Shown here one piece after another: positions 9,537-34,992 of a DNA stretch of 42,612 bases (the first letter of the stretch is position 1; every line of letters begins with the position of its first letter). The notes below the pieces were generated by a model. It was not told where the DNA came from and ran no database searches. It was given only the letters and a program-made list of their open reading frames with translations. This DNA comes from a virus. The stretch lies in the IMG/VR virus record IMGVR_UViG_3300020474_000034, positions 1-42,612 of that record, one strand, 5' to 3'. The translations under genes were made by a program, and so were the position numbers.

Positions 9537-10115
9537 ATGAGCAATTTTTCTGATAGAGGGTGGTATTACCTTCCTGAAATTATTACTAAAGAAGAAGCAA
9601 TAAGAATTAAGTATCAAAATCTTTGTGGTGCTATGAGTGATTTGGGATCACTTGAAGGGCACTGGGATGAAGAAAGAGGAAGAGTATTAACTTGTTATGC
9701 ACCACCATCATCCACATTTGTAGTTCATAGAGTCAAACCAATTCTTGAAGAACTATTAGGAGAAGAACTTATTCCATCTTACTGGTTCTCTACAACTTAT
9801 CATAATAAAGGATGGATGAATTGTCATACTGATAGACCCTCATGTGAAGTATCAGTCACCATGAATATTTTTGGTGATGCAAAATGGCCTATAAAACTTA
9901 AAGATCTTACAGGAAAACGTCAGGAAGTTGTAACTCCCGTAGGTGATGGTGTTGCATACTTAGGAACAATTGTTCCTCATTGGAGAAGTCCATTAAGAAC
10001 TCATAAGAATGATAGTTTTATGCAACTCTTTTTACATTATGTAAGAAAGAATGGACCTTATGCAGACTATGCCTATGATAGAAATCAAAAATGTTATGAC
10101 TTACTCACGAACTAA
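9537..10115 (+). CDS. Putative 2OG-Fe(II) oxygenase-like protein
   Basis: 192-residue protein with a plausible double-stranded beta-helix iron site: HTD (His97, Asp99) in GWMNCHTDRPSCEVSVTMN and, about 50 residues later, PHWRSPLR with His148 and Arg150/Arg154. The spacing HxD-(n)-H-R fits 2-oxoglutarate/iron dioxygenases. It carries APPSST and a charged N-terminal YYLPEIITKEEA typical of these small phage hydroxylases. Substrate unknown; the neighbouring chaperone-like, P4H and fibre genes suggest modification of virion proteins. It is the only plus-strand gene between 1.6 kb and the right end, and its 3' end overlaps the convergent gene by 11 bases. Confidence 0.65.
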   Translation: MSNFSDRGWYYLPEIITKEEAIRIKYQNLCGAMSDLGSLEGHWDEERGRVLTCYAPPSSTFVVHRVKPILEELLGEELIPSYWFSTTYHNKGWMNCHTDRPSCEVSVTMNIFGDAKWPIKLKDLTGKRQEVVTPVGDGVAYLGTIVPHWRSPLRTHKNDSFMQLFLHYVRKNGPYADYAYDRNQKCYDLLTN

Positions 10116-10836
10116 AACGACCTTCTGGTTCTGGTAATGCAGGAAGAGTATCATTAATCAATACAATAGATCTTAATTTTTGTGAGTAATCTTTAGTTAT
10201 ATTTGTATCAACTTGTATTGAATTTGGAGTTGCTGGAAAAGTATCTGTTGTAATTCCAACGGATGGTAAATCTCTTAAAGATTGTCTCCAATTCTTAAAC
10301 TCATCTGATAATGCACCTCCATTCTCTGTTGTTCTTGTAACAATCCAATCAGTATCTTTCAAAACTTCATCTCTAACTATTCTTATTTCACCATATCTTT
10401 TTTCAGTTTGTCTTGCATCATAATTAGAAATCTCAGTATTCCATTGTTCTTGAGTTAATATTTTAAGACCATCATTTTCTACAATGGTATTTGTTTCTCT
10501 GTAAGTTACATCATGCAAAGTTACTGTGGTTGTTTCACCTGTTTCTTCTCCAGTTTCTTCGTTTATAACAGGTTCTTCAACCTGTTTTTCAGTAGAACTT
10601 ACTACTGTAATATTTGAGTCATTTTGATATTCAGTTAAGACACTTGGAGTTACAGTTTTTGAATACTCAAAATAATCTGGAACTTTTGATAGGCAAATAT
10701 GATCTCCATTCTCATCAGTTAAACGATAAACAATTTCCAATCCCTTCAATTTTGGAAATACATATCCTCTTATATCACCTTTTATCCATTCTCCAGTATC
10801 TCTATCCACTAAAAAGTGTTTAATTAATTGAGACAT
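10105..10836 (-). CDS. Tail fibre assembly chaperone-like protein
   Basis: 243-residue protein. The C-terminal part has the pattern of phage tail-fibre-assembly chaperones: EIRIVRDEVLKDTDWIVTRT, then WRQSLRDLPSVG, i.e. RDxxLxxTDW followed by W+xxLRDxP. The N-terminal half (VDRDTGEWIKGDIRGYVFPK) and a repetitive acidic middle (NEETGEETGETTTV) look like a beta-rich phage-specific part. It is encoded next to fibre-type genes, which fits assisting their folding or being part of them. The P4H-like gene ends five bases before its ATG, so the two are cotranscribed. Confidence 0.65.
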   Translation of the reverse strand: MSQLIKHFLVDRDTGEWIKGDIRGYVFPKLKGLEIVYRLTDENGDHICLSKVPDYFEYSKTVTPSVLTEYQNDSNITVVSSTEKQVEEPVINEETGEETGETTTVTLHDVTYRETNTIVENDGLKILTQEQWNTEISNYDARQTEKRYGEIRIVRDEVLKDTDWIVTRTTENGGALSDEFKNWRQSLRDLPSVGITTDTFPATPNSIQVDTNITKDYSQKLRSIVLINDTLPALPEPEGRFSS

Positions 10837-10841
10837 TTTTA

Positions 10842-11504
10842 TCAGTACACATTTATATTGTATTTATCTTCTATCTCTTTATCAATCTCTGCTTTCGTAG
10901 GCATACCTTGAACAGTCATCCAGTTTACCATTGCATAACGAGTTCCTGAGATGACTGGTTCTACTTTATGAAGATAAAATTGCGAAGATGGAAAAGCAAC
11001 TAACAATCCTGGTTCTGGTTTAATACGGACTCTAAGATCTGGAAATACAAATTCCCCACCTTCAAAATCATCATTTAAAAAAAGAATTGTTGATAAGTCT
11101 CTGTCTACAGACTTCTTCCATATGATAGAACCATCAGGGTTCTTCCACCTTGATACTGCATCATAATGTCCTTTATAGTGTCCTCCTGGTTCATATACAA
11201 GTAACTGAGGAAGTTCACTATCCCTTATCTTAAACTCATAAAAAGGATTGATTACATGATGAACAATATTATCATAAAGTTCTTTAACTTCTTCAATAAT
11301 TTTTGAGATATCAGAGCAATCTACATTTCTTACACTCAAATCAACTCTTGATGGATGACCTTCTTTATTTTCATTTGCTTTTTCTCCATCAAACACACCC
11401 ATCTTATCTTTAGGTGCAATCTTTGCATGATTCACTAAGAAATCAATTCCTTCTTTTGATACAACTTTTGGTTGTATCAATACATTTCTAAGTATATCAT
11501 TCAT
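10842..11504 (-). CDS. Prolyl 4-hydroxylase-type 2OG-Fe(II) oxygenase
   Basis: Iron and 2-oxoglutarate dependent hydroxylase of the P4Hc type. In 220 residues the key positions are visible: HYDAV with His113 and Asp115, LSTILFLNDDFEGGEFVFPD (the conserved GGE strand), the distal LHKVEPV with His179, and GTRYAMVNW with Arg189 for 2-oxoglutarate. Substrate unknown. The next gene downstream is the chaperone-like gene, and the nearest upstream gene is a Kelch-like repeat protein whose loops are rich in APP motifs, so prolyl hydroxylation of a phage protein is a reasonable but unproven idea. A CTAAATA late element lies 22 bases upstream. Confidence 0.85.
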   Translation of the reverse strand: MNDILRNVLIQPKVVSKEGIDFLVNHAKIAPKDKMGVFDGEKANENKEGHPSRVDLSVRNVDCSDISKIIEEVKELYDNIVHHVINPFYEFKIRDSELPQLLVYEPGGHYKGHYDAVSRWKNPDGSIIWKKSVDRDLSTILFLNDDFEGGEFVFPDLRVRIKPEPGLLVAFPSSQFYLHKVEPVISGTRYAMVNWMTVQGMPTKAEIDKEIEDKYNINVY

Positions 11505-11534: not shown

Positions 11535-13300
11535 TTAGTTTGATACTGCTGCTAATTTTCTTCGAAGGTAACTGCTCCGTCTTAAAACAGTCTCATTTGA
11601 GAAATCAAGTCTATCTAAATCAGCATCAGTTGTTCCCTCACCACCAGCAAAGTAACCATAAGAACTACTTGAGACTGCTGCTAAACTACCTCTTGCTTCA
11701 GGTAAATTATTTCCTGGCAATAACATAGTGTCATTTGAGAAATCAATACGGTCTACTGTAGTAACATCAGGTGGTGCCTGACCACCACCAAAGTAACCAT
11801 AAGAATTATTTGATACTGCTGCTAAACTTCTCCTTGCTTGAGGTAGGTTATTACCTGGTGCTGATACAGTATCATTAGAGAAATCAATACGGTCTATTGT
11901 GTCAAGATAAGATGGACTCCCATCATCCCCACCACCGAAGTAACCATAAGAATTACTTGAGGTTGCTGCTAAAGACTCTCTTCCATTTCTACTCTGTGGT
12001 AAATTATTTCCTGGTAATGATAAAGTCTCATTAGAGAAATCTAAACGATCTATTGTTTTTTTCTCAAAGGGTCCATCGGTTCCACCACCAAAGTAACCAT
12101 AAGAACTACTTGAACATGCTGCTAAACGTTCTCTTTCTTCAGATAAATTATTACCTGGTGCTGATAAAGTCTCATTAGAGAAATCAATACGGTCTATTAT
12201 GACAAGTTCTTCTGGATCTGCATCTGGATTGTCACCCCCACCATAATAACCATAAGAATTACTTGAGGTTGCTGCTAAAGACTGTCTTACTTGGGATAAG
12301 TTATTACCTGGTGTCGATATAGTTTCAGATGAGAAATCAATACGGTCTATTGTAGCAAGTATAGGTCCTGATATTGGAACCTGCTCACCACCACCAAAGT
12401 AACCATAAGTTCTTGAACCTTTTATTCTGTCTGATGCTCCTCCGGATACTGCTGCTAAATAAGATCTTGCTTGAGGTAAATTATTACCTGGTGCCGATGT
12501 AGTCTCACTAGAGAAATCAATACGGTCTACTGTATTATAATAAGTCTGTGGTGGAGAAAAATAACCACCACCAAAGTAACCATAAGAACTACTTGAACAT
12601 GCTGCTAAACCATATCTTCCTTGAGTTAAATTATTACCTGGTGCTGATAAAGTCTCATTAGCAAAATCAATACGGTCTATTGTGGCAGCATACGTTGTTG
12701 GTGGAGAGAAATAACCACCAGCAAAGTAACCATAAGAACTACTTGAACATGCTGCTAAACTAGATCTTGCTTGAGATAAATTATTACCTGGTGCCGATGT
12801 AGTCTCACTAGAGAAATCAATACGGTCTACTGTATTACGATAAGGTGGAGAAAAACCACCACCAAAGTAACCATAAGAACTACTTGAGACTGCTGCTAAA
12901 TAAGCTCTTGCTTGAGATAAATTATTACCTGGTGCCGATGTAGTCTCACTAGAGAAATCAATACGGTCTACTGTGGTAAGATAAGGTGGAGCATAACCAC
13001 CACCAAAGTAACCATAAGAACTACTTGAACATGCTGCTAAACCATATCTTGCTAGAGGTAAATTATTACCTGGTGCTGATGTAGTCTCATTCGAGAAATC
13101 AATACGGTCTATTGTATCAACACGAGGTGGAGCAAAACCACCACCAAAGTAACCATAAGAACTACTTGAGACTGCTGCTAAAATCTCTCTTTGTTGAGTT
13201 AAATTATTACCTGGTGCCGATGTAGTCTCACTAGAGAAATCAATACGGTCTATTGTATCAACACGAGATGGAGCAGTACCACCACCAAAGTAACCATAAG
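11535..13300 (-). repeat. In-frame tandem repeat array, 12 units (copy 1)
   Basis: Units of roughly 135-160 bases, conserved at DNA level in the parts coding YGYFGGG and DRIDFSNE, with indels in multiples of three in the variable loop. Three arrays of the same unit occur in the window. Confidence 0.9.
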
Positions 13301-13400
13301 TAGCACTCTCTGGCCAACTCTCAAAGTTGTTATTGTCTATATTTTCTACCTGTTTCTCGTAAATAGAAGTTAATCCAAATACGTCTCCTATGATAGGCAT
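11535..13400 (-). CDS. Twelve-repeat Kelch-like propeller protein (copy 1)
   Basis: 621 residues: a 34-residue N-terminal segment ending NNFESWPESA, then twelve repeats of about 45-55 residues. Each reads (T/S)YGYFGGG, a variable loop, T(I/V)DRIDFS(N/S)ETxSAPGNNL, xQAR, xxLAA(V/C)SSS. The diglycine, aromatic and Arg spacing resembles Kelch repeats, so each repeat is probably one propeller blade. Repeats 6 and 7 are joined by SGGASDRIKGSRTYGYF, the only irregular junction, giving two sets of six. The last repeat is degenerate (ETVLRRSSYLRRKLAAVSN). No enzymatic residues seen. It starts six bases after the upstream 278-residue gene. Likely a virion fibre or adhesin; the fold and role are inference. 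Confidence 0.8.
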   Translation of the reverse strand: MPIIGDVFGLTSIYEKQVENIDNNNFESWPESATYGYFGGGTAPSRVDTIDRIDFSSETTSAPGNNLTQQREILAAVSSSSYGYFGGGFAPPRVDTIDRIDFSNETTSAPGNNLPLARYGLAACSSSSYGYFGGGYAPPYLTTVDRIDFSSETTSAPGNNLSQARAYLAAVSSSSYGYFGGGFSPPYRNTVDRIDFSSETTSAPGNNLSQARSSLAACSSSSYGYFAGGYFSPPTTYAATIDRIDFANETLSAPGNNLTQGRYGLAACSSSSYGYFGGGYFSPPQTYYNTVDRIDFSSETTSAPGNNLPQARSYLAAVSGGASDRIKGSRTYGYFGGGEQVPISGPILATIDRIDFSSETISTPGNNLSQVRQSLAATSSNSYGYYGGGDNPDADPEELVIIDRIDFSNETLSAPGNNLSEERERLAACSSSSYGYFGGGTDGPFEKKTIDRLDFSNETLSLPGNNLPQSRNGRESLAATSSNSYGYFGGGDDGSPSYLDTIDRIDFSNDTVSAPGNNLPQARRSLAAVSNNSYGYFGGGQAPPDVTTVDRIDFSNDTMLLPGNNLPEARGSLAAVSSSSYGYFAGGEGTTDADLDRLDFSNETVLRRSSYLRRKLAAVSN

Positions 13401-13406
13401 AAGAAT

Positions 13407-14243
13407 TTATTGCTTAAGGTCTTGATTAAATAATGATCCATTAAGTTGCTTCTTTTCTTCATCCTCAATAGATGAAAGAATTTTTTGATCCATACCAGTA
13501 ATTTCAGAAATACCAGCAGTAACATTTTCCTGTAATTTACTTAAGAAATCAAGAGGATTAGTTGGATCACCAAATGATCCTTTAGTTCTATTCACATCAT
13601 TCCCTAATACAGTAGGAGCACTTGCTCTTCTCATAGAACGAATATTACCAGCATTCACACCAGTTTTTGCAGCAAACAAATCATCAATAGATTGATTTGA
13701 AAGTCTTCTCTCCCAATAGTCTGGTTGATCTGCATCAAACTGCTCTTTATTAACTAATTTACCACCATTTAATTCAATCAGACGACTGATTAACTTATCA
13801 AAACATTCAAGTTCTTGAACTGATGCCTTGAAACCATGATTAAGTCCTTCAAGCATACGATGAAAATGAAACTCATCAATATCATACCAACATAATTCTT
13901 CACCACCATCACGGGTTTTCCACCAGATTGGTTGAGTCTTATCCTTTCCTTCCCACTTATAATGAAACTCTCTTGCTTCTTTCTTTGCACTAATGATTTT
14001 AGAAAGAAGACCTTCTGCTACACTCTTACGATTGATTAAAGCAGCCTTAAATGCAGATGGAATTGTAAAAGTATCGTGAATAATAAACTTTTCAATTTGA
14101 AAATCTGAACGACCTTGTGCGAGTTCTACTTCACTTTCAGTCCAACGATTTGCTTCATTCAGAACCTTAAACATAAATTCATTCTTATCATCCAAAACTT
14201 CCGTAGAAGATGCAAGTGCAATCGATTCATAATTGTTAGTCAT
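13407..14243 (-). CDS. Conserved cyanophage hypothetical protein
   Basis: 278-residue soluble, mostly helical protein, no recognised domain. Visible features are FIIHDTFTIPSAFKAALINR, a Trp-rich stretch QPIWWKTRDGGEELCWYDID, the DEFHFHRMLEGLNHGFK segment with several His and acidic residues, and a C-terminal part with NAGNIRSMRRASAPT. The style is that of a conserved cyanomyovirus protein. A T4-type late promoter TATAAATA is about 30 bases upstream. It is cotranscribed with Kelch-like copy 1, six bases downstream, so it may be a structural protein or assembly factor. Confidence 0.6.
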   Translation of the reverse strand: MTNNYESIALASSTEVLDDKNEFMFKVLNEANRWTESEVELAQGRSDFQIEKFIIHDTFTIPSAFKAALINRKSVAEGLLSKIISAKKEAREFHYKWEGKDKTQPIWWKTRDGGEELCWYDIDEFHFHRMLEGLNHGFKASVQELECFDKLISRLIELNGGKLVNKEQFDADQPDYWERRLSNQSIDDLFAAKTGVNAGNIRSMRRASAPTVLGNDVNRTKGSFGDPTNPLDFLSKLQENVTAGISEITGMDQKILSSIEDEEKKQLNGSLFNQDLKQ

Positions 14244-14274
14244 AAAAATTACAAAATACCAATCTAATTTTAGT

Positions 14275-14282
14275 TATTTATA
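14275..14282 (-). promoter_or_regulatory. T4-type late promoter TATAAATA
   Basis: Exact T4 late consensus TATAAATA on the minus strand, 31 bases before the ATG at 14243. It would drive the 278-residue gene and Kelch-like copy 1. Confidence 0.7.
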
Positions 14283-14299
14283 TTCTTATAATGATATGT

Positions 14300-16040
14300 T
14301 TAGTTTGAGAGTGCTGCTAAATTATATCTTGCTTGAGTTAAATTATTACCTGGTGCTGATGTAGTCTCATTAGAGAAATCAAGACGGTCTACTGTAGTAA
14401 CCTGAGGTGGAGCATTACCACCACCAAAGTAACCATAAGAACTACTTGAGACTGCTGCTAAACTAGATCTTGCTTGAGGTAGGTTATTACCTGGTGCCGA
14501 TGTTGTCTCATTCGAAAAATCAATACGGTCTATTGTGTCAACCTGAGGTGGAGCAAAACCACCACCAAAGTAACCATAAGAACTACTTGAGGTTGCTGCT
14601 AAACTAGATCTTTCTTGAGGTAGGTTATTACCTGGTGATGATATAGTTTCAGCAGAGAAATCAATACGCTCTATTGTGTCAAGTCTAGATGGACTTTCTG
14701 CTGGATTTTGACCACCACCAAAGTAACCATAAGAATTACTTGAGGTTGCTGCTAAATTACGTCTTGATTGAGTTAAATTATTACCTGGTGCTGATGTAGT
14801 CTCATTAGAGAAATCAATACGGTCTACTGTGGTAACCTGCCCAGTTGGAGCAAAACCACCACCAAAGTAACCATAAGAACTACTTGAGACTCCAGAAACA
14901 TAAGATCTTGCTTGAGGTAGGTTATTACCTGGTGCTGATGTAGTTTCATTAGAGAAATCAATACGATCTATTGTATTATAAAGATTACTAGGTGGAGCCT
15001 CACCACCACCAAAGTAACCATAAGAACTACTTGAGACTGCTGCTAATCTATCTCTTGCTTGAGATAAATTATTTCCTGGTGCTGATGTAGTCTCATTAGA
15101 GAAATCAATACGGTCTATTGTTGATTGTACACTAGGAGTAACTCCACCACCAAAGTAACCATAAGTTCTCGAACCTTTTATTCTTTGTGATGCTCCTCCA
15201 GATACTGCTCCTAATTCATCTCTTACTTGAGACAGATTATTACCTGGTGCTGATGTAGTCTCATTCGAGAAATCAATACGGTCTACTGTGTTAACAACTG
15301 ATGGATTTCTACCACCACCAAAGTAACCATAAGAATTACTTGAACATCCTGCTAATTCAGTTCTTGCTAGAGGTAAATTATTACCTGGTGCCGATGTAGT
15401 TTCATTAGAGAAATCAATACGGTCTATTGTATCAGCAGGAGGTGGAGAAGAACCACCACCAAAGTAACCATAAGAACTACTTGAACATGCTGCTAAACCA
15501 TATCTTGCTTGAGTTAAATTATTACCTGGTGCCGATGTAGTCTCATTAGAGAAATCAATACGGTCTACTGTGTCAACTCTAGGTGGTGAGTTACCACCAC
15601 AAAAGTAACCATAAGAACTACTTGATACTGCTGCAAATTGGTTTCTTGCTTGAGATATATTATTACCTGGTGCCGATGTAGTCTCATTAGAGAAATCAAT
15701 ACGATCAACTAATGTTACGTTACTAAAGGCAGCAGGAGTTCCACCACCAAAGTAACCATAAGAACTACTTGAACATGCTGCTAAACCACCTCTTCCTTGA
15801 GGTAAATTATTACCTGGTGCTGATATAGTTTCATTAGAGAAATCAATACGGTCTATTGTTGATTTTACACCAGGATTATAACCACCAGCAAAGTAACCAT
15901 AAGAACTACTTGAGACTGCTGCTAAATCAGATCTTGCTTGAGATATATTATTACCTGGTGCCGATGTAGTCTCATTAGCAAAATCAATACGGTCTACTGT
16001 AGTAACCTGAGGTGGTGCCTCACCACCACCAAAGTAACCA
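14300..16040 (-). repeat. In-frame tandem repeat array, 12 units (copy 2)
   Basis: Same unit as the array at 11535-13300. Long stretches are near identical between units, for example the DNA coding NETTSAPGNNL, giving many substrates for homologous recombination within and between the three genes. Confidence 0.9.
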
Positions 16041-16132
16041 TAAGTAGCACTCTCTGGCCAACTTTCGAAGTTGTCGTTTGCAATATTCTTTATCTGTTCT
16101 GTTCTAACTTCGTTGAGAGAAAATATTGCCAT
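14300..16132 (-). CDS. Twelve-repeat Kelch-like propeller protein (copy 2)
   Basis: 610 residues, same plan as the other two copies: short N-terminal segment with NDNFESWPESA, six repeats, the SGGASQRIKGSRTYGYF junction, six repeats. It is the most regular copy: most repeats carry SNETTSAPGNNL unchanged, and loops such as EAPPQVTT, NSPPRVDT, FAPPQVDT vary around a PP core. One repeat has GYFCGG. The ATG directly abuts the sulfotransferase stop (TAAATG), so the two are probably translationally coupled. No SD-like element is visible beyond that. A beta-propeller adhesin is inferred; the only direct evidence is the repeat pattern and fibre-gene context. Confidence 0.8.
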   Translation of the reverse strand: MAIFSLNEVRTEQIKNIANDNFESWPESATYGYFGGGEAPPQVTTVDRIDFANETTSAPGNNISQARSDLAAVSSSSYGYFAGGYNPGVKSTIDRIDFSNETISAPGNNLPQGRGGLAACSSSSYGYFGGGTPAAFSNVTLVDRIDFSNETTSAPGNNISQARNQFAAVSSSSYGYFCGGNSPPRVDTVDRIDFSNETTSAPGNNLTQARYGLAACSSSSYGYFGGGSSPPPADTIDRIDFSNETTSAPGNNLPLARTELAGCSSNSYGYFGGGRNPSVVNTVDRIDFSNETTSAPGNNLSQVRDELGAVSGGASQRIKGSRTYGYFGGGVTPSVQSTIDRIDFSNETTSAPGNNLSQARDRLAAVSSSSYGYFGGGEAPPSNLYNTIDRIDFSNETTSAPGNNLPQARSYVSGVSSSSYGYFGGGFAPTGQVTTVDRIDFSNETTSAPGNNLTQSRRNLAATSSNSYGYFGGGQNPAESPSRLDTIERIDFSAETISSPGNNLPQERSSLAATSSSSYGYFGGGFAPPQVDTIDRIDFSNETTSAPGNNLPQARSSLAAVSSSSYGYFGGGNAPPQVTTVDRLDFSNETTSAPGNNLTQARYNLAALSN

Positions 16133-16963
16133 TTATAATCCGAAGACAGAATAACTTTGAGTTCTCTGTTTTTTCCAGAACTCCATATGATTATATTTAT
16201 TCATAATATTCTCCGAAAGATACTTTGTATTATCACGATGTATTTTTTCTACTGTATCTCGGACACTATGCATATTTTCTAACTTATAAACATTATCATT
16301 CTCATCTTGTTTGGTAGAAACATTCTCAAAACTATGAAAATAAGATGATAACCCTATGAATTCATAGATACGATTGAGTTCTTGTTGAGGATTTCTTACC
16401 AAATCATCATAATCAATAAGTAATAAGTATTGATTGTTTCCTTTTCTAAAACATTCTAATAGAGCATTATATGATTGCCCTATAATTCCTTGTGAGGACA
16501 TCAAATAATCACAACGATTATCATTTGAGATTTCTATATTATTCCAAATTAAGTTTTCATCAATAAATGATGTGGTCTTTGAGTTACAAATAAGATTTAA
16601 AAATGAAGATAAAATGTCCTGAATGTTTCTTACTGGACAGATAATTTTCGGTTCAGTTGTAATGTAGTCCTGAATATGTTTTATCTGATTGACCCAACCT
16701 CTGGACTTATCAATAATAATATCTTGAGGGGTATTGAAATAATAATTATAAGGTATGGAAGATAATACCTTATGAGCACCTTCGGGGTTTGGTGTTGCTT
16801 TATATTGTTCTGAATTATATAAAAGATACTCTTCTGTATAATGAATTGTATCCAACAAAGGTGAGTTTGTAGATGCGTGTATCTCTGGATTCTGATTGAG
16901 TAATGCAGTTAATAAAGTCGAACCTGATCTTGGAAGACCAGACATAAAATAAAATTGTTTCAT
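16133..16963 (-). CDS. Sulfotransferase family protein
   Basis: Predicted PAPS-dependent sulfotransferase. The N-terminus MSGLPRSGSTLLTALL is the 5'-phosphosulfate-binding loop (residues 7-22), and PVRNIQDILSSFLNL fits the 3'-phosphate motif (R...S). YEFIGL and the His/Asp-rich middle fit the family; 276 residues is normal for a single-domain enzyme. It sits between two Kelch-like genes with 0 and 3 bases of spacing, so all three are one transcription unit. Possible substrates are a virion protein, a host polysaccharide or a lipid; no choice can be made from sequence. Sulfotransferases of this type occur as accessory genes in other cyanophages. Confidence 0.85.
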   Translation of the reverse strand: MKQFYFMSGLPRSGSTLLTALLNQNPEIHASTNSPLLDTIHYTEEYLLYNSEQYKATPNPEGAHKVLSSIPYNYYFNTPQDIIIDKSRGWVNQIKHIQDYITTEPKIICPVRNIQDILSSFLNLICNSKTTSFIDENLIWNNIEISNDNRCDYLMSSQGIIGQSYNALLECFRKGNNQYLLLIDYDDLVRNPQQELNRIYEFIGLSSYFHSFENVSTKQDENDNVYKLENMHSVRDTVEKIHRDNTKYLSENIMNKYNHMEFWKKQRTQSYSVFGL

Positions 16964-16966
16964 AAA

Positions 16967-18735
16967 TTAATTTGATACTGCTGCAAATTGTCTTCTTGAT
17001 TGAGATAGATTATTACCTGGTGCCGATGTAGTCTCATTAGTGAAATCAATACGATCAACTAATGCTGTTGTACTAGGTGCATCACCACCAGCAAAGTAAC
17101 CATAAAAACTACCTGAGACTGCTGCTGCGTCACTTCTTGCTTGAGTTAATCCAGTTCCTGGTACTGATGTGGTATCATTAGAGAAATCAATACGGTCTAT
17201 TGTTGATTGTATACTAGGAGTACCTCCACCACCAAAGTAACCATAAGAACTACTTGAGACTCCTGCTAATTCATCTCTTGCTTGAGATAAATCACCTACG
17301 TCTGATACAGTCTCATTAGAAAAATCAATACGGTCTATTGTGCTACGCTTAGGTGACTCACCACCAGCAAAGTAACCATAAGAACTACTTGAGAGTGCTC
17401 CTAATTCACGTCTTGATTGAGTTAAATTATTACCTGGTGCCGATGTAGTCTCATTAGAGAAATCAATACGGTCTACTGTAGTAACCTGAGGTGGTGCCTC
17501 ACCACCACCAAAGTAACCATAAGAACTACTTGAACATCCTGCCAAATGTTCTCTTGCTTGAGGTAGAATATTTCCTCTAAATGACATAGTTTCATTCGAG
17601 AAATCAATACGATCCACTCTTGATACTGGACTAGGAGTACCGCCACCACCAAAGTAACCATAAGAACTACTTGAGACTGCTGCTAATTCGTCTCTTGTTA
17701 CCGGTAGATCATTTCCTGGTAATGACATAGTTTCATTAGAGAAATCAATACGGTCTACTGTGTCTCTTCTAGGTGGTGACTCACCACCAGCAAAGTAACC
17801 ATAAGTTCTTGAACCTTTTATTCTCTCTGATGCTCCTCCGGATACTGCTGATGAACCCAATCTTGATTGAGGTAAATCAAAACCTGGTGCTGATGTAGTC
17901 TCATTAGAGAAATCTAAACGGTCTACTGTGTTATAAGTAGTAATAGATGGTCCTGGTGAAAGAATGTAACCAGCAGCAAAGTAACCATAAAAACTAGATG
18001 AGACTGCTGATAAACCAGCTCTTACTTGAGATAAATTATTACCTGGTGCTGATGTAGTCTCATTAGTGAAATCAATACGGTCTACTGTGGTAACAAAATT
18101 TGGTGATAATCCTGCATTTACACCACCACCAAAATAACCATAAGAATTACTTGAGGTTCCTGCTAATAAATTTCTTCCCTGAGTTAAATTATTACCTGGT
18201 GCCGATGTGGTCTCATTAGAGAAATCAATACGGTCTATTGTATCATTAAAAGTAAGTGGAGAAGTGTAACCACCACCAAAGTAACCATAAGAACTACTTG
18301 AGACTGCTGCTAAACCACTTCTTGCTTGAGGTAGATTATTACCTGGTGCTGATAAAGTCTCATTAGAGAAATCAATACGGTGTATTGTTGCAAACTCAGT
18401 AGTAGGTGGATTATAACCACCACCAAAGTAACCATAAGAACTACTTGAGACTGCTGCTAAACTACTTTTTGCTTGGGGTAAATTATTACCTGGTGCTGAT
18501 GTAGTCTCATTAGAGAAATCAATACGGTCTATTGTGGCAACAATAGTTGGTGGTGGAGCAAAATAACCACCACCAAAGTAACCATAAGAATTATTTGATA
18601 CTGCTGCTGAACCATTCCTTGTTTGAGATAGATTATTTCCTGGTACTGATGTGGCCTCCGTAAAAAGATCAATTCTATCTACTGTGTTCACTTGACCACC
18701 AGGAGAAATAAAACCACCAGCAAAGTAACCATAAG
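16967..18735 (-). repeat. In-frame tandem repeat array, 12 units (copy 3)
   Basis: Third array of the YGYFGGG...DRIDF unit, with longer and more varied loops than the other two arrays. Confidence 0.9.
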
Positions 18736-18829
18736 TAGAACTCTCTGGCCAACTTTCAAAGTTGTTATCTTTTACATTTTGAACTTGCTTTTTATATACC
18801 TTATCAAGACCAAAAATTCCTCTTACCAT
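16967..18829 (-). CDS. Twelve-repeat Kelch-like propeller protein (copy 3)
   Basis: 620 residues, same 6+6 plan with the junction SGGASERIKGSRTYGYF. The N-terminus IFGLDKVYKKQVQNVKDNNF followed by ESWPES resembles copy 1 (VFGLTSIYEKQVENIDNNNF). It is the most diverged copy: several repeats have GYFAGG, one GYFAAG, two start FYGYF, and the NETTSAPGNNL block decays (NETMSFRGNIL, NETVSDVGDL). Loops are longest here, up to AGYILSPGPSITTYNT. It is first in the operon copy 3 - sulfotransferase - copy 2, ending three bases before the sulfotransferase ATG. A weak late element is about 26 bases upstream. Confidence 0.8.
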   Translation of the reverse strand: MVRGIFGLDKVYKKQVQNVKDNNFESWPESSTYGYFAGGFISPGGQVNTVDRIDLFTEATSVPGNNLSQTRNGSAAVSNNSYGYFGGGYFAPPPTIVATIDRIDFSNETTSAPGNNLPQAKSSLAAVSSSSYGYFGGGYNPPTTEFATIHRIDFSNETLSAPGNNLPQARSGLAAVSSSSYGYFGGGYTSPLTFNDTIDRIDFSNETTSAPGNNLTQGRNLLAGTSSNSYGYFGGGVNAGLSPNFVTTVDRIDFTNETTSAPGNNLSQVRAGLSAVSSSFYGYFAAGYILSPGPSITTYNTVDRLDFSNETTSAPGFDLPQSRLGSSAVSGGASERIKGSRTYGYFAGGESPPRRDTVDRIDFSNETMSLPGNDLPVTRDELAAVSSSSYGYFGGGGTPSPVSRVDRIDFSNETMSFRGNILPQAREHLAGCSSSSYGYFGGGEAPPQVTTVDRIDFSNETTSAPGNNLTQSRRELGALSSSSYGYFAGGESPKRSTIDRIDFSNETVSDVGDLSQARDELAGVSSSSYGYFGGGGTPSIQSTIDRIDFSNDTTSVPGTGLTQARSDAAAVSGSFYGYFAGGDAPSTTALVDRIDFTNETTSAPGNNLSQSRRQFAAVSN

Positions 18830-18854: not shown

Positions 18855-18861
18855 TATTTAA
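18855..18861 (-). promoter_or_regulatory. Weak late-type element TTAAATA
   Basis: Minus strand TTAAATA, about 26 bases upstream of Kelch-like copy 3. It departs from the CTAAATA/ATAAATA form by one base. Confidence 0.35.
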
Positions 18862-18874
18862 CAAAGTAACATCA

Positions 18875-19456
18875 CTACACTACTATCTCAACATTAAATG
18901 AAATCGAAATCCGATTTTGATCTGATGTATTTGGAGAAACAAAATGAGGTAACCAGGAAGGAAATAATAATAACTCACCTACTTTTGGGTAATGAGAAAA
19001 ATATTCATCCTTGATTAAAGAACTTCTCTGAAAGTCCATCATTCTTGCTGATCTTGGATCTTGAAAAACAATTTCATTATTATTTTCTGGAAGTTGTACA
19101 TAATAAACTCCACTCAACCATCCAGAAGGATGAACATGAGTAAAATTAAATCCTCCTTTTGGATTAATATTTCCCCACATTGCCCTCACAACCATTTGAG
19201 GAAGTTCTTTATTTGATAAATTCTTAGCAATTATTTGTGAAGCATTAAGTGTTTCATCTAAAAGAGGTTTGAAAATATTTTCTTTCCATAAAAAAGTATC
19301 ACTCTGCCAACCATTACGATTACTTCTCCTCTCACCTTCTGTTCTATTAGAAAGTTCCATTAAAAAATTTTTATACTTTTGATTCTGATGTTCATTGAAC
19401 AAATCAGCAATATAAAAATTAGTTGGAAAAATAATACCTTCCTTCAATTGTGCCAT
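18875..19456 (-). CDS. 2OG-Fe(II) oxygenase superfamily protein (TIGR02466-like)
   Basis: 193-residue putative hydroxylase. Motifs in order: NFTHVHPSGWLSGVYYVQLP with His107/His109, the IVFQDPR strand, ELLLFPSWLPHFVSPN with the distal His171, and NRISISFNVE with Arg182 for 2-oxoglutarate. This HxHP...LSGVYY...FPSWLPH layout is that of the uncharacterised family TIGR02466. Its substrate is unknown. It lies just upstream of Kelch-like copy 3 and just downstream of a large fibre gene, so a virion-protein substrate is possible. Confidence 0.8.
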   Translation of the reverse strand: MAQLKEGIIFPTNFYIADLFNEHQNQKYKNFLMELSNRTEGERRSNRNGWQSDTFLWKENIFKPLLDETLNASQIIAKNLSNKELPQMVVRAMWGNINPKGGFNFTHVHPSGWLSGVYYVQLPENNNEIVFQDPRSARMMDFQRSSLIKDEYFSHYPKVGELLLFPSWLPHFVSPNTSDQNRISISFNVEIVV

Positions 19457-19472
19457 AATAAATTCAATTATT

Positions 19473-22400
19473 CTATGTTATATATTTACCTGATAAAGTA
19501 GCAGAAAGACTATCTGTAAGAGTAGTTCCTGCAATACCTACGACAATAGTATCATTTGCAGCAAGATACTTTGGTCTTTCCAAAATTTCAATAACACTAT
19601 TCTTAGGTATTGTCATATTATATACCAAGTATCCCTGTCTAATACCTGTAGTCAGAATACCTCCAACACTTCCTCCACGATAGATGGATACTGATGCATC
19701 AACATCAATATTTAAATCATAATTACACAATCGAAGTGATTGAATAACTGATGGATTTGTATTTGATGTGAACATTTCTGTTCCGGCTGGTGTAGTAACT
19801 GTTACTCCAGTTCCAATATAATCAGTATCAGTTTTTTCGGAGTAAATTATGAATGAATCCAATCCATTATTAACTCCTGTTGCCGTTGTTCCTACTCCAT
19901 TAAGTGCTTGGAAACTTAAAATATCTGATGGTTTTGCAATAATTGGTTCTTCTAAAAGTTCTAAAGAACCTTGATAAGGAACTACGACTCTTTGTGTAGT
20001 CGGAACATTTTGTCCACCATTAAAATCATGTCTTGATGTGAAATAAAGATTTGTATTATAAATGTTCGTTACATGAATAGATTCAATTACATAACTCTTA
20101 CCTGCCGTTGCTGGGAATGAATATGCAATTCCAGGACCAATAAAGATATCATTATTTGCTGCAACTGTAGTAAGTCCTGCCTGTGCAGTTCCAATACCAC
20201 CAGTAACTGAAGCATAAATTGATGTTGTAATTCCGGTATCAAAAGTTCCTGAACCTCCACCACCACCAGCTCCAGAAATAGCAACATTACTGATACCAGT
20301 AATTCTGCCATTAGCATCTACTACAACCTGAGCAACATTTGTTGCATTACCATAAGTAGCAGCAGAAGCACCAGTTAAATTAGTTAAGTTAGCACCAGAA
20401 CCATAATAGTTATTTGCAGTAACAACACCTACATTCAGTATTTTAGTGTTGCCAGTATCAACAGCATTGGTTGGAGTAATAGTTCCAATACCTATGTTTC
20501 CAGAACTATCAATAATAACTCTCTTAGTTCCTCCTGAATCAAAACTCATCGAGTTATCAGTATGATTATAACTCAGCAGTCCTGCATTTCTACTAGCATC
20601 AGAAAATCCTATCTCAGACACACTTGGTGATACTAATTGTAGTGCTGCACCTTGACCTCCATTTTGATTTTCAATTACAAGTTTATCAAAGTTAGTAACT
20701 GGAGAGAAACTTGAAGTTCCGGATAAGATATGTAAATCTACTACTGGGGATGTAGCACCAATACCCATTCTTCCAGTAGAAGGATTAAATGTAAGACCTC
20801 CTGTTGTTACACCAAGTCCAGTTGTACCTCCTATTGATGTTGCATATGTTAGATATTGTGACTGATTTTCTACATTACTAGAGATAGATATAGAACTTAT
20901 ACCACTAGGTAAGTTAGTTAGATTGGCACCACTAACTGCAGGTAATGTGGCAGGGAATCTGGCATCAGGAATAGTACCAGAACTAAGATTAGATGCATTA
21001 AGATTAGTTAGATTACTACCATTACCATAAAATTGTGCGGCAGTTACAGATGATGCTACTGAAATACTTGTAAAAGATACAATTCCACTATTTGAATTAT
21101 TATTAGATGCATTAAGCATCACCATATTTCCAGAATGACTTGTACTTATACTTCCGTAAAATAGTTTAGAAGGAGTAGTATCATGCGTGACGATTTGTGT
21201 ATATGCACCTTCAGTACCAGCAGTTCCAACAGTAGTAACTCCACTCACTTCAGAAGTTTGTGCTAAATCTGTATAAAACTTTAGTGTATGATTTACATTC
21301 GACGGATCGTCTTGATTAAATCTATATGTTCTTCCTGCGGTAAGGTGTAGGTAAGGTGTTTTGTTGCCTTCTATAAGGAACTTTTCTGTGGATCCTGTAC
21401 CAAGATATACATCACCAGTGGTCTTAACACCAACAGTTACATTTAGAGATGTAATATTATTAGTGCTAATACCAACTGTTTCAATGATACTATCTGCTGC
21501 TAATGAACCAGATACTGCAATAGAATTACTAGATTCTGAATGTATTCCGATATTATTACCACGAGAGAAGAATACTTTTTCTGCTCCATTTACACTAGCA
21601 TCAAGAATAATAGAAAAATCACCGATCCTTAAACGATCACCTCTGATATATGCACTACCATCAACAAATAATGTAGGGAAGATAGAGTCTGATACTCCTT
21701 CCGGAGGTACTATATGAAGTGGATATAATGGTTTATCTGTTCCTATACCAACAAAGTTGTATTCTCCATCAAGAGTAACAGATAAATCCGTATATACTAA
21801 TTGAAATTCTGCCTGAGTACCCCCGTCATTAACCACTGCAGGATCTTGAGTCGTTATAATACCTGCGACAGAATCAAATGCAATTATTCTATTACTACGT
21901 CCACCAAAAAGTGCTTGTGCGTCATTACCACCCGGATTAAAAAAACCACCACCGGCAGTTGGAACTAAAAAGTATCTACCAGAATCAATTGATGGACCAG
22001 TATAACCAGGATCATTTAAAATATTACCAAGAGCATCTCTATCTACAGCAATAATATTAAATGCAGTTTGACCAATTGCTACACTTCCAGTAAAGTCAAT
22101 ATCAACACCTGGAAGTTGATCATTGGGAAAATTATTAGCATTATCTACTGGTGGTATTAAAATAAATTGTTCAGTGGTTGAAAGGATTCCAGATTTTGCA
22201 CTAATATATGAAGTGGTGCCGGTTGATGTAGAGACAACAAATGTTCTTCCAGTTCCAACTAATAAATCACCTTGATTTATTCTTATATTTCCACGAACTT
22301 CTAGATTTTCTGTTGGATTTGTAGTTCCAATCCCAACCTTAGATGTTACTGTATGAATTCCTACAGAAGTTCTAATCCAATCATTATCTTCTCCTGTATC

Positions 22401-22589
22401 AGGGAGGTTAATAAGATTACTACCATCACCATAAAGAAAGTTAGCAGTAACAATACCGGCATGAACTATACTAGTATTACTTGGAAGAACTACACTATTT
22501 GGATTTGTTGTCCCTACTCCGACATTACCAGTATTAATTAATACTCTACTATCATCAATAATAGTAGAACCTGAAATCTTAATTGCCAT
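19473..22589 (-). CDS. Large tail-fibre-type structural protein (1038 residues)
   Basis: Repetitive beta-rich protein beginning MAIKISGSTIIDDSRVLINT, with repeated VGVGTTNP / VGIGTTNPTENLEV / IGIGTITPTNAV elements and FYGNGSNLTNL-type units, the style of phage fibre shafts with pseudo-repeats. A Gly-rich hinge (SGAGGGGGSGTF, near residue 775) separates this shaft from a C-terminal domain of about 260 residues (TGITTSIYASVTGGIGTAQA onward) that ends with SATLSGKYIT; the domain carries a duplicated YxVxxxxIxNxxx theme and may be a small beta-sandwich tip. There is no S74 chaperone. Expected role: side or distal fibre, or a virion-surface protein. A CTAAATA element is at 22628. Confidence 0.75.
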   Translation of the reverse strand: MAIKISGSTIIDDSRVLINTGNVGVGTTNPNSVVLPSNTSIVHAGIVTANFLYGDGSNLINLPDTGEDNDWIRTSVGIHTVTSKVGIGTTNPTENLEVRGNIRINQGDLLVGTGRTFVVSTSTGTTSYISAKSGILSTTEQFILIPPVDNANNFPNDQLPGVDIDFTGSVAIGQTAFNIIAVDRDALGNILNDPGYTGPSIDSGRYFLVPTAGGGFFNPGGNDAQALFGGRSNRIIAFDSVAGIITTQDPAVVNDGGTQAEFQLVYTDLSVTLDGEYNFVGIGTDKPLYPLHIVPPEGVSDSIFPTLFVDGSAYIRGDRLRIGDFSIILDASVNGAEKVFFSRGNNIGIHSESSNSIAVSGSLAADSIIETVGISTNNITSLNVTVGVKTTGDVYLGTGSTEKFLIEGNKTPYLHLTAGRTYRFNQDDPSNVNHTLKFYTDLAQTSEVSGVTTVGTAGTEGAYTQIVTHDTTPSKLFYGSISTSHSGNMVMLNASNNNSNSGIVSFTSISVASSVTAAQFYGNGSNLTNLNASNLSSGTIPDARFPATLPAVSGANLTNLPSGISSISISSNVENQSQYLTYATSIGGTTGLGVTTGGLTFNPSTGRMGIGATSPVVDLHILSGTSSFSPVTNFDKLVIENQNGGQGAALQLVSPSVSEIGFSDASRNAGLLSYNHTDNSMSFDSGGTKRVIIDSSGNIGIGTITPTNAVDTGNTKILNVGVVTANNYYGSGANLTNLTGASAATYGNATNVAQVVVDANGRITGISNVAISGAGGGGGSGTFDTGITTSIYASVTGGIGTAQAGLTTVAANNDIFIGPGIAYSFPATAGKSYVIESIHVTNIYNTNLYFTSRHDFNGGQNVPTTQRVVVPYQGSLELLEEPIIAKPSDILSFQALNGVGTTATGVNNGLDSFIIYSEKTDTDYIGTGVTVTTPAGTEMFTSNTNPSVIQSLRLCNYDLNIDVDASVSIYRGGSVGGILTTGIRQGYLVYNMTIPKNSVIEILERPKYLAANDTIVVGIAGTTLTDSLSATLSGKYIT
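20272..20400 (-). repeat. Fibre module shared with the right-edge gene
   Basis: This 129-base stretch, coding SGANLTNLTGASAATYG and the following VDANGRITGISNVAISG, matches 42326-42454 without gaps at about 118 of 129 positions by eye. Confidence 0.8.
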
Positions 22590-22638: not shown

Positions 22639-25600
22639 TCATTCAAGTTTGGATAATCTATCGTTGAGAGAATTAATTTGTGTTTGCTGTTCCTTCACAA
22701 CCTCAATCAGAAGTCCAATCAGACCATTATAATTAACGGTTTTCTTATCACCAGAAGCAACAAGTTCAGGAAGAACTTGCTCAACTTCTTGTGCGATGAC
22801 ACCTACAGATGGTTTTTGTGTTTCCTTCCAATCAAAATTAACACCACGAATATGAACAACTTTTGCTAATGGATCCTCAATCGTATGAATATTAGTTTTG
22901 AGATTTTCATCAGAAGTTGTATTGAAATCAGTAGCAGTTAGAGTTCCATCAGAAGAATTAAATGTAAGATTACTTCCACTCTTAGGTGCTAGGTTTCCTG
23001 TTGCTGCTGTCACAAACAGTGGGAAACAAGTTGCATCAGAGTTCTCATCAGCAACAGTTACGTTAGTAGAATTAGTAGCAGTGACGGCAGTTGCAACATT
23101 AAACTCACTTTCTACTTTACCATCTAATGTAAATGCAGTAGTCGCAAAAGATGCCGTTGATGCTGATCCAACAATATCTATTGTATAAGGACCACCAAGT
23201 CTGGCATCACTAATGGTTCCAGTAGTTATGTTTGCTGCATTTGCCAGGTTAGTAGCAGTAACAGCAGTTGCGACATTAAATTCACTTTCTACTCTATCGT
23301 TCAAAGTGAATGCTGTAGTAGCAAATGATGCTGTTGCCGCAATTCCGGTAATATTAATACCATAATCACCAGATAATCTAGCAGCATTAATAGTTCCAGT
23401 AGTTATGTTTGCTGCATTTGCTAAGTTAGTGGCAGTAACAGCAGTTGCAACATTAAATTCACTTTCTACTCTATCGTTCAAAGTGAATGCTGTAGTAGCA
23501 AATGATGCCGTTGATGCTGATCCAACGATATCTATCGTGTAAGGACCACCAAGTCTGGCGTCACTAATAGTTCCAGTGGTAATATTAGCAGCATCTGCTA
23601 AGTTAGTGGCAGTAACAGCAGTTGCAACATTAAATTCACCTTCTACTCTATCGTTCAAAGTGAATGCTGTAGTAGCAAATGATGCCGTTGATGCAGTTCC
23701 AGTAAGATTACCACTAAATCCACCTGTTGCTGTAACTACACCAGAAGCATTAATATTTCTTACTGCTGATAAATCATTCTCAGTAATCTGAACATTACCA
23801 GCAGCAAAATATGTTCCTGTTGGGAATTGTGTCGTACCAACACCAAGTGCGTAATTAGTCAACCAGGCATCAGTTCCCAATCCAGCAAAAGCAGCAGACT
23901 GATACCAATATAATCTCTTGTAAGTAGAAGGATGTGTATCAATACCGGCAATAGTTAGATCAACTAAAGGATCTCCTACTGTAGAAGCAATTGCAATTCC
24001 TCCTGCATTTGCCGTAGTGTCACTAGAAGCATCATTACCATTAGAATCAGTCGTAAATCCTGCAATAATGTTTTTATCAGAAATTTTAAACTCATCAACA
24101 ATAAGAGTAGCACCCGCACCAACAATTAATAGATCACCATTAACAGTGAGATCATTTTGTACTGTTACATTACCTGGTAATGTTGGGTTGGTTGCTATTT
24201 GTATTTGTGCCGCAGTACCCTCTCCTGTACCATCAATTACAGTAATTTGCTGAGAATTTCCTGATGCTACGGATTGTACATAATTTCCAAAAGTATCGGC
24301 ACCAAGTTCAACAGAATTAGGTTGAATAGTTGAGGCAAGTGAAACATTACCAGTACCATCAAAACTAATAGCAGATGCAACTACATCACCGGTAATTTCA
24401 AATGTTCTTGGATTCTGAAGTTTTGTAGTTTCAGTTGATAATCCTGCGGTTTGTGCAAAGGCAACATTAAGGTCTGATTCTACTGCACCATTAAGACTAA
24501 ATGCTGTTGTAGCAAATGATGCTGTTGATGCTGTTCCGGTCAAAGGACCATTAAATTCTCCAAAGTAAGTTACAATTCCAGAAGTGGCAGTTACAATACC
24601 AGAAGAAATTTGTATTGTTCCTAAAGTGCTTACACCAGAAACACTTAACTGAGTAACAGAAGCAATACCACCAATTACATTTGTAGCAGTATTAGCAATA
24701 CCACCAGAACCATTAACACTTTGATTAATTGTAATCGTAGAAATAGTTCCAGATGCTGTGGCAACTACACCATCACCTACAAAGTTTAATGCAGAAATAC
24801 TACCACCACTTCCTACAGTAGAACCTTCATCTTGAACGGTAATACCATCAATCGCACCGGTTGATGCTCCATCTGCCCATTGCGGAGCATTAGTTCCACC
24901 ATTTGATACTAAAACTTGACCTACAGTTCCATTTGTTAAGAATGCTGTTGTATTAGTGGCAGATTGATAAACAACTTGTCCACCTGCCCCACCAGCAAGA
25001 TTAGTTGCGATACCAGCAGTTTGTGCGAAACCAGCAAACTCAGAAGAATTAATTGAAATATTAATAGTATTACCAACACCAACAAAGGTGTTTCCTACAC
25101 CAATAAAGTTAAGTGTGGTAAATCCCGTTCCAATAATTGTACCAGAAGATTGAATACCAACACCACTAATAATGTTCTCAAGGTATTGACCATCACCATA
25201 ATAAGTTACAATACCTGTTGTTGCGGTAACAACACCAGCACTAATCTTAACACCATCTAAGGTACTGATACCAGAAACATTAAGTGCATCTAATTCAGTT
25301 TGACCATCAACATCTAAGTCACCATTAATATCTACACTATTTGCAAAAGTGGAAACTGAAACTGCACTGAGAGTAATACCAGATCCAATTACAATGGACT
25401 CTGTTCCATTAGTTCCGTCTAATGTAATGGAAGATTCTCCAATTGTCACAATACCGGTGATGACAGTTCCACCTCCAGATATATCAATAATAGTACCACC
25501 TTCTCCTTCAAGTCTTAAAGCAGTTATAATACCAGCAGACATACTAATATCATTACCAACCCTTAAAGTATCATTTTCTCCACCAAGTCTTGCATCACCT

Positions 25601-30856: not shown

Positions 30857-31228
30857 TCAAGAGACCTTATTTGTCCTTGAACCATATCGGTAAAGATTTA
30901 CTGCTTCTTCTGGTTCCATCCACTTTTTAATTTTTTCATAACGATCAATATCAAAAAACTCCTGTGAAAAATACCAATCTTCCATAGGAGAATATGCTTT
31001 ATCTTGATTACATTTGTGACAGGCACATAGACAATTTTTTGTGAAATCTGTACCACCCTTTGCTCTTGGAACAATATGATCTATTGTAAGATGATGTGTA
31101 GACCCACAATAAGCACACTCCCAACCCCATTCTTCCTTTATTTGTGTCCTCCATAACCTTTTTGCTTCCGATGAATTTGCCGTATGGAGATTAAAAACAT
31201 AGGCTTGAAAGGTATTGTAGAGAGGCAT
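30857..31228 (-). CDS. HNH endonuclease
   Basis: 123-residue HNH nuclease with the classical core: CAYCG (Cys38, Cys41), LTIDHIVPRAKGG (Asp50-His51), the FTKNCLCAC stretch with Asn65, and HKCNQDK (Cys70/Cys73, Asn74, Lys77). The N-terminus (MPLYNTFQAYVFNLHTANSS) is short and no DNA-binding repeats of GIY-YIG or NUMOD type are visible. It is free-standing between fibre genes; in T4-like phages such genes are often selfish elements that spread by cutting related phage DNA. A CTAAATA element lies 21 bases upstream. Confidence 0.9.
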   Translation of the reverse strand: MPLYNTFQAYVFNLHTANSSEAKRLWRTQIKEEWGWECAYCGSTHHLTIDHIVPRAKGGTDFTKNCLCACHKCNQDKAYSPMEDWYFSQEFFDIDRYEKIKKWMEPEEAVNLYRYGSRTNKVS

Positions 31229-34056: not shown

Positions 34057-34992
34057 TCATTTATTTTTAATAGTTCCAATAACCCATGATCTCATACCAA
34101 ATGGTGTATCAGCAATCAAAGATTGAGCCATTTTAACTGTACTTGGTGCCACCACTAAACAGAATCCAATACCACAGTTGAATACATTACGCATCTCTTC
34201 CTCAGCAATGTCTCCTGCCTTTTGGATCTTGTTAAACAATTCTGGTCGTTCCCAAGAAGACCAATCAACATCAACTGTAAGACCTTCTGGAAGGCATCGT
34301 GGAAGGTTCTCAGGGATACCACCACCTGTGATATGTGCCATACCTAGAATAGGAAGTCCCTCCAACAAATGCATGATTAGACGGGCATAGATGGTGGTAG
34401 GTCTCAGCAACTCTGGCATATCCTTGTAGGTAATCTTTTGTCTCCACAACATATCATTGATGAGAGTATATCCATTACTATGAAGACCACTACTTTCAAT
34501 ACCAATGACTACATCACCTGCTCGGATTGAACTACCATCGACACCCCCATACTTATCTACAACACCAGTACAGAAACCAGCAAGATCATAATCATGTTGT
34601 CGGTAATGCTCTGCAGTTTCTCCACCTAACAATTCCATTCCAGCCATAGCACAACCAGTGGCAATTCCATTCACAATGTCAGTAACATTATCATCAATTT
34701 TTTTAGTAGAGATATAATCTAAAAAATATAATGGTTCAGCACCAGAACATATAACGTCATTGACGCACATAGCAACGAGATCCTGACCAATAGTGGTGTA
34801 ATCACGGGCAATCCTACAGATATTAATTTTAGTTCCGACACCATCAGCACCAGATACTAATACAGGGTTCTTATATTTTGATGGGATCTCCATCCTTCCA
34901 CTAAACCCACCAATATTAGGCGTTAATGCTTTCAGGTAATCAACAAAAGATCTACCTCTGATAATGTCAACGCCAGAAGTTTTGTAATCCAT
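34057..34992 (-). CDS. purM: Phosphoribosylaminoimidazole synthetase PurM (AIR synthetase)
   Basis: Closes the imidazole ring: FGAM plus ATP gives AIR, step five of purine synthesis. The 311 residues are a little shorter than bacterial PurM (about 345). Diagnostic segments: SGADGVGTKI (47-56), GQDLVAMCVNDVICSGAEPL, LLGGETAEH, GLHSNGYTLI, HITGGGIPENLPR. Together with purC it would divert host metabolites into purine nucleotides during infection. Its ATG overlaps the stop of a small gene (TAATG), so it is expressed from the purC transcript. Confidence 0.96.
   Translation of the reverse strand: MDYKTSGVDIIRGRSFVDYLKALTPNIGGFSGRMEIPSKYKNPVLVSGADGVGTKINICRIARDYTTIGQDLVAMCVNDVICSGAEPLYFLDYISTKKIDDNVTDIVNGIATGCAMAGMELLGGETAEHYRQHDYDLAGFCTGVVDKYGGVDGSSIRAGDVVIGIESSGLHSNGYTLINDMLWRQKITYKDMPELLRPTTIYARLIMHLLEGLPILGMAHITGGGIPENLPRCLPEGLTVDVDWSSWERPELFNKIQKAGDIAEEEMRNVFNCGIGFCLVVAPSTVKMAQSLIADTPFGMRSWVIGTIKNK

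Follow-up and report, generated by a model that had tools for sequence, protein, structure and literature searches.

What role is played by three long, closely similar Kelch-repeat proteins encoded amid the tail fibre genes of a cyanophage? The question is raised by IMG/VR virus record IMGVR_UViG_3300020474_000034, of which positions 1 to 42,612 (42,612 nucleotides; hereafter the window) were analysed, and in which three such genes lie between positions 11,535 and 18,829. An original prediction, made from the letters alone, had described their products as paralogs of twelve repeats each and proposed that each is two fused six-bladed propellers. The answer that we consider reasonably probable is that they are adhesins of a T4-like cyanophage, expressed late and probably carried on the virion, with tagged heads diversified by recombination.

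The three open reading frames (ORFs), named here after their N-terminal tags, encode Kelch proteins beta (copy 1, P0001; 621 amino acids; 11535..13400), alpha (copy 2, P0002; 610 amino acids; 14300..16132) and gamma (copy 3, P0003; 620 amino acids; 16967..18829). All three start with ATG and lie on the minus strand, as do their parts and the cassette genes and promoter-like motifs located below. Cutting at YGYF gave exactly 12 units per protein, mostly of 45-51 residues, which confirms the repeat number first reported; unit 6 is longer (59, 56 and 62 residues in copies 1, 2 and 3) because the irregular junction SGGAS(D/Q/E)RIKGSRT sits in it, after repeat 6 in all three proteins as first described. 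Based on this repeat split, together with N-terminus comparison and tag hidden Markov models (HMMs), beta comprises a tag (residues 1-34, MPIIGDVFGLTSIYEKQVENIDNNNFESWPESAT; 13299..13400), putative propeller 1 (repeats 1-6; 12444..13298), a junction (GGASDRIKGSRT; 12408..12443) and putative propeller 2 (repeats 7-12; 11538..12407). The corresponding parts of alpha, for which the structural model described below adds support, are the tag (residues 1-30, MAIFSLNEVRTEQIKNIANDNFESWPESAT; 16043..16132), propeller 1 (repeats 1-6; 15200..16042), junction (GGASQRIKGSRT; 15164..15199) and propeller 2 (repeats 7-12; 14303..15163), and those of gamma are the tag (residues 1-32, MVRGIFGLDKVYKKQVQNVKDNNFESWPESST; 18734..18829), propeller 1 (repeats 1-6; 17840..18733), junction (GGASERIKGSRT; 17804..17839) and propeller 2 (repeats 7-12; 16970..17803).

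Pfam Kelch models match all three proteins, two of them above the curated cut-off, which bears out the Kelch assignment. PF24681 gave E-values of 7e-22 for beta, 3.2e-18 for alpha and 4.9e-11 for gamma, with 78.3 and 66.3 bits for the first two (cut-off 50) and 42.8 bits, below the cut-off, for gamma; Kelch_3 also exceeded its cut-off for beta and alpha. YGYFGGG and QAR are present in nearly all 36 repeats of the window, consistent with the Kelch superfamily, whose repeats of 44-56 residues carry a double glycine following strand 2 and a conserved Arg ahead of strand 1. The canonical strand-4 Trp was found in none of these repeats, which carry ETTS-type segments at that place; this Trp varies in accepted Kelch families too, and we treat its absence as variation rather than exclusion from the superfamily. 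In the PHROGs search all three proteins fell into phrog_19111, a family of unknown function.

We modelled alpha with AlphaFold2 from a 53-row alignment. The model has a mean predicted local distance difference test score (pLDDT) of 88.9 and four strands per repeat, formed in typical repeats by YGYFG, DRIDF, TTS and LAAV, whereas pLDDT is below 50 at residues 1-3, 20-26 and 316-321, the last within the junction. The predicted template modelling score of 0.59 reflects the uncertain relative placement of the two domains. A Foldseek search of the PDB matched the model to six-bladed Kelch domains over ~290 residues at a root-mean-square deviation (rmsd) of ~1.9 Å, with template modelling (TM) scores by target of 0.87-0.93 and 14-20% identity (SAKe6 designs, KLHL12, KLHL3 and Keap1); no Kelch match came from a sequence search of the solved structures. 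The query-normalised TM score of ~0.43 corresponds to one alpha half on one propeller: each match covers a single propeller, and the other half is assigned by its same strand pattern and confidence, as the fold of beta and gamma is by their 68% and 71% identity to alpha. In the standard Kelch strand order each half begins with strand 2 (YGYF) and finishes with strand 1 (LAAVS), and the final repeat of each half would supply the closing strand of its first blade. Prediction and repeat counts in multiples of six (see below) both point to closed propellers of four-stranded blades. A solenoid fold was rejected on the six-bladed Kelch match and the six-fold repeat numbers. Overall, model, fold search and repeat counts agree with the proposed two fused six-bladed propellers, and each protein very likely forms two closed six-bladed Kelch propellers with a low-confidence linker between them.

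Relatives were drawn from IMG/VR with a Kelch protein query and with the product of ORF278, the constant partner gene of the cassette, and repeats were counted with an iterated repeat HMM, wide gaps being filled, in 135 dereplicated complete ORFs. No relative turned up when bacterial and archaeal genomes were scanned with the family alignment. In the first relative set 57 of 71 dereplicated complete ORFs had 12 repeats, so the shared count is not chance. Twelve is not universal, since relatives with 6, 18 and 24 repeats occur, and 121 of the 135 ORFs carry a multiple of six (6, n = 4; 12, n = 109; 18, n = 7; 24, n = 1). The 24-repeat protein of locus L121 has junctions after repeats 6, 12 and 18, and the 18-repeat protein of L116 after repeats 6 and 12. 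Of the 14 exceptions, frameshifts or record ends account for seven pieces from Synechococcus phage S-SKS1 and L026, two more are distant L057 proteins with poorly detected repeats, and in L038 the first repeat, which was not detected, is very probably all that is missing; the others, real or due to assembly, are L014 (10 repeats), L094 (11), L046 (7) and L091 (4). The longest spacing between HMM starts falls after repeat 6 in 22 of 57 relatives, a measure that variable loops and HMM ends make imprecise, and the six-fold layout rests on the counts and the inspected junctions. The multiples of six indicate that the six-repeat propeller is the real unit and lend independent support to a blade number of six. 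Three relatives are of separate note: a single Kelch protein of six repeats that adjoins ORF278 and has a proline-rich N-terminus as well as ISLSD-type motifs (L124 6668-7963), a Kelch gene split over two frames (L026 2923-4456), and a gene of 6+4 repeats with nearly identical adjacent repeats, which may be a real deletion or an assembly collapse (L014 10320-11888).

The N-termini tell the copies apart. Three tag types of ~30 residues were recognised (alpha, IFSLNEVRTEQIKNI; beta, GDVFGLTSIYEKQVENI; gamma, GIFGLDKVYKKQVQNV), and scoring with seed HMMs found one alpha, one beta and one gamma in 56 of 56 loci with three intact copies, a set that includes many near-duplicates and small score margins in the distant L029, L045, L047 and L053 and their copies. 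Gene order in these loci was gamma-alpha-beta (30), gamma-beta-alpha (20) or alpha-beta-gamma (6), and L057 also has one tag of each type, weakly. If loci are independent, types drawn at random would yield one of each in all of the first 15 loci with p ~1.6e-10. With 66-71% mutual identity, the three window proteins are related as originally predicted, but their distinct tags mean that they are not plain paralogs.

Tags and propeller bodies have different histories. Within the close clade, tags of the same type share 87% identity between genomes and those of different types 57%, whereas bodies are 62.6% identical behind the same tag, 62.7% behind another tag, and 66.7% within the same genome. 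A maximum likelihood tree of 39 bodies, which has some long branches and, with recombination violating a single tree, was used only for the absence of tag clades, did not group the bodies by tag (22 changes; mean after shuffling 19.0). Several of its well-supported pairs and trios unite different tags of one genome, including window alpha and beta (96/97) and L025 alpha and beta (100/99). Three old full-length paralog lineages were rejected on this tree. Sequence comparison strongly supports orthologous inheritance of the tags within the close clade, and exchange or homogenisation of bodies between tag types; tag/body modularity is very likely. The tag and body identities match a trait of receptor-binding proteins, a conserved N-terminal anchor with an exchangeable distal part.

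The bodies also appear to change faster than their surroundings. Compared with the window, Kelch proteins of the nearest loci are 51-74% identical, against 92-99.6% for ORF278, 94-96% for 2-oxoglutarate (2OG) oxygenase B, 89-97% for the cassette sulfotransferase where present, and 77-95% for 2OG oxygenase A and the tail fibre assembly protein where kept, which strongly supports a much faster divergence of the propeller bodies than of nearby genes. Within repeats, mean entropy was 2.51 in the 2-3 loop and 3.35 at the two residues after the conserved Arg (4-1 loop), against values of 0.55-0.86 for strands 2 and 3. The 2-3 and 4-1 loops share one side of an antiparallel four-stranded blade, the side with which Keap1 binds Nrf2. 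A concentration of variation in these loops, on one propeller face, is strongly supported. A search of the window, of the complete S-SKS1 record and of three 172-219 kb contigs found no match to reverse transcriptase (PF00078), and an adhesin varied by a diversity-generating retroelement was set aside on this ground.

The genes around the Kelch ORFs place them in a fibre operon. In transcription order, a tail fibre gene, the gene of a baseplate/fibre protein with a C-terminal Peptidase_S74 chaperone domain (22639..27039; PF13884, E 1.4e-14; phrog_1469, E 8.7e-108) and another fibre gene (19473..22589; phrog_30742, E 2.4e-21) are followed by 2OG-Fe(II) oxygenase A (18875..19456; 2OG-FeII_Oxy_5, E 1.4e-27), gamma, a sulfotransferase (16133..16963; Sulfotransfer_1, E 2.8e-17), alpha, ORF278 (278 amino acids; 13407..14243), beta, 2OG-Fe(II) oxygenase B (10842..11504; 2OG-FeII_Oxy_3, E 2.9e-16) and a tail fibre assembly protein (10105..10836; phrog_4912, E 1.4e-80). 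The fibre neighbours first reported are thus upheld by PHROGs and Pfam. Relatives keep the cassette with inserted glycosyltransferase, FkbM methyltransferase or DUF6445 genes. Late-promoter-like motifs lie 26 nt upstream of gamma (TTAAATA; 18855..18861) and 32 nt upstream of ORF278, with beta behind it (TATAAATA; 14275..14282). Both starts belong to the 14 of 37 minus-strand starts with xTAAATA at 15-45 nt upstream (0.88 expected from rotations), a motif similar to the cyanophage late promoter consensus NATAAATA (PMC2984593). Elsewhere in the window, two genes match phrog_182 (photosystem II D1; 36902-37957 and 40464-41600), one of which may be a D2 gene, and together with a purM-like gene (34057-34992) they mark a cyanophage; an HNH endonuclease gene (30857-31228) lies amid the fibre genes.

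ORF278, with a weak match to phrog_1409 (function unknown), was accompanied by Kelch genes at every locus where it was found, and all newly fetched IMG/VR loci had a flanking Kelch-repeat ORF. Among phage records its relatives were limited to S-SKS1 and AG-345-L05, both with Kelch genes. Its model is helical (mean pLDDT 75.4), with the S-SKS1 ortholog as the sole confident structural match. At L045 15246-16988 and L057 19461-21356 it is fused behind a glycosyltransferase.

Kelch proteins in phages, and propeller receptor-binding proteins in phages, were already known or proposed. The closest kin of the window cassette is that of S-SKS1 (Llyrvirus; SWZG_00287, 00289, 00291 and 00001, PHROG 19111), with the same Kelch proteins (~72% over aligned pieces), annotated only as hypothetical, and with sulfotransferase, ORF278 (99%), 2OG oxygenase and assembly protein genes arranged in the same order. 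In that phage (L006, i.e., NC_020851.1 195233-208007, reversed), the Kelch genes at L006 1657-3416 and 4343-6192 read as 9+3 and 3+9 repeats in different frames, with breaks near short T and A runs that sequencing error, laboratory loss or phase variation would explain equally well; the third straddles the ends of the linear record. Marine virus AG-345-L05 (Kyanoviridae, single-cell genome) has three Kelch-repeat genes in a similar cassette (fibre, sulfotransferase, glycosyltransferase/ORF278, 2OG oxygenase), but differs in its ~27% identity, up to ~18 repeats, Laminin_G_3 between blocks and ORF278 fused to glycosyltransferase.

More distant systems share fewer features. Phage vB_PcaM_CBB encodes three Kelch proteins (CBB_550, 552 and 554), one of which was detected in the virion by mass spectrometry (PMC5259590); they are smaller (one of 285 amino acids in the structure library), and no tag/body system has been described for them. 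Pseudomonas phage PhiPA3 gp360 (F8SJJ2) and PS119XW A0A5C1K9B9 (~620-630 amino acids) align structurally over their whole length and probably form two propellers each, but at 14% identity and with poor whole-length superposition (rmsd 17-18 Å). Propellers are proven or proposed to serve attachment in phi11 Gp45 (five-bladed), PRD1 P2, PhiKZ gp131C (seven-bladed) and the beta-propeller heads of the K1F and phi92 endosialidase spikes (PMC4901313), all of which differ in lacking Kelch repeats and a tag trio and in blade number or fold. Eukaryotic Keap1, KLHL12 and KLHL3 and the SAKe6 designs share the six-bladed fold, as single propellers with different biology. A Kelch-repeat protein is reported in cyanophage P-HM2 (PMC3037559) and the 'Sericin 1-like' protein of S-RIM12 is Kelch-type by structure match; tblastn with alpha found neither. 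We found no paper on this cassette in a literature search that was thin in subscription-journal articles. Among relatives we also observed a ~100-residue fibre-like, beta-rich segment between beta tag and propellers (L045 17003-19207), a gamma protein with glycine-rich linker and C-terminal MAM-like domain (L029 8603-11194, also L028 and L053), and the lectin-like Laminin_G_3 between two Kelch-repeat blocks of AG-345-L05 (L057 21838-24585).

A fibre or adhesin role would fit this evidence, and a place as virion adhesins is likely but unproven. Late expression as adhesins is suggested by the fibre operon ending in an assembly protein and by the late-promoter-like motifs; an adhesin role by the variable loops on one face, the tag/body modularity and the lectin-like domains of relatives (Laminin_G_3 between propeller blocks, MAM behind propellers); and a virion location by the CBB Kelch protein found in particles (PMC5259590). 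Several points weigh against this reading: we infer the virion location and ligand binding of the family, as we do tag docking; the alpha tag helix (residues 6-19) is modelled at low confidence; the best homologs lack functional annotation; in cultured S-SKS1 apparent frameshifts affect two of the three Kelch genes, so that perhaps not all three are essential; and shuffling is incomplete, with a residual positional signal among repeats of 32/192 against 16 by chance.

Virion decoration or whisker-like proteins on tail or capsid, giving general weak attachment rather than specific receptor binding, would be an unlikely but not outlandish alternative. Whiskered CBB has three Kelch genes and one product in its virion, with its whisker genes left unassigned by the authors (PMC5259590), and ordinary fibre genes are also present in each genome; yet one-face variation and bodies swapped behind conserved tags exceed the needs of a purely structural coat, and the Kelch genes have fibre genes rather than capsid genes as their neighbours. 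We give a lower probability to intracellular adaptors that bind host proteins during infection, as poxvirus Kelch proteins do. Fibre operon position and late-promoter-like motifs speak against them, neither BTB nor any other effector or ubiquitin-ligase domain was observed, and the domains added in relatives are lectin-like, even though the Kelch domains of Keap1, KLHL12 and KLHL3 bind peptides and a secretion signal is unnecessary in either model.

Just as improbable, in our judgement, is that no bodies were swapped and that fast point mutation and selection erased the body orthology of three old paralogs. Body identities in the close clade all lie near 60-70%, perhaps from a shared repeat consensus alone. 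The greater likeness of same-genome bodies (66.7 vs 62.6%), the well-supported mixed-tag branches of the window and L025, and stretches of DNA up to 69 nt long that are identical in different window repeats all disagree with this, and together imply that recombination or gene conversion is needed.

If the proteins are tagged adhesins, each tag might serve as a docking address for one of three tail or baseplate sites, or for one of three places in a single assembly, with ORF278 perhaps acting as adaptor or chaperone. The variable propeller face would bind host-surface glycans or proteins, and recombination among repeats would renew this surface while preserving the six-blade unit. The sulfotransferase and 2OG oxygenases, and in relatives the glycosyltransferases and methyltransferases, may modify heads or fibres. 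A bolder version, which we regard as rather doubtful, is that the three tags build one hetero-oligomeric receptor-binding complex with ORF278 as its dedicated adaptor and heads of one to four propellers reshuffled by recombination.

It has long been asked how cyanophages vary host recognition. Hetero-oligomeric docking at three addresses, if true, would provide varied host recognition without a diversity-generating retroelement, in a compact conserved cassette whose constant part (tag and partner protein) and variable part (one propeller face) are recognisable from sequence alone. The presence of the cassette in the cultured phage S-SKS1 makes the idea testable, and the multiples of six show cleanly, through natural variants, that evolution has the whole propeller rather than the individual repeat as its unit.

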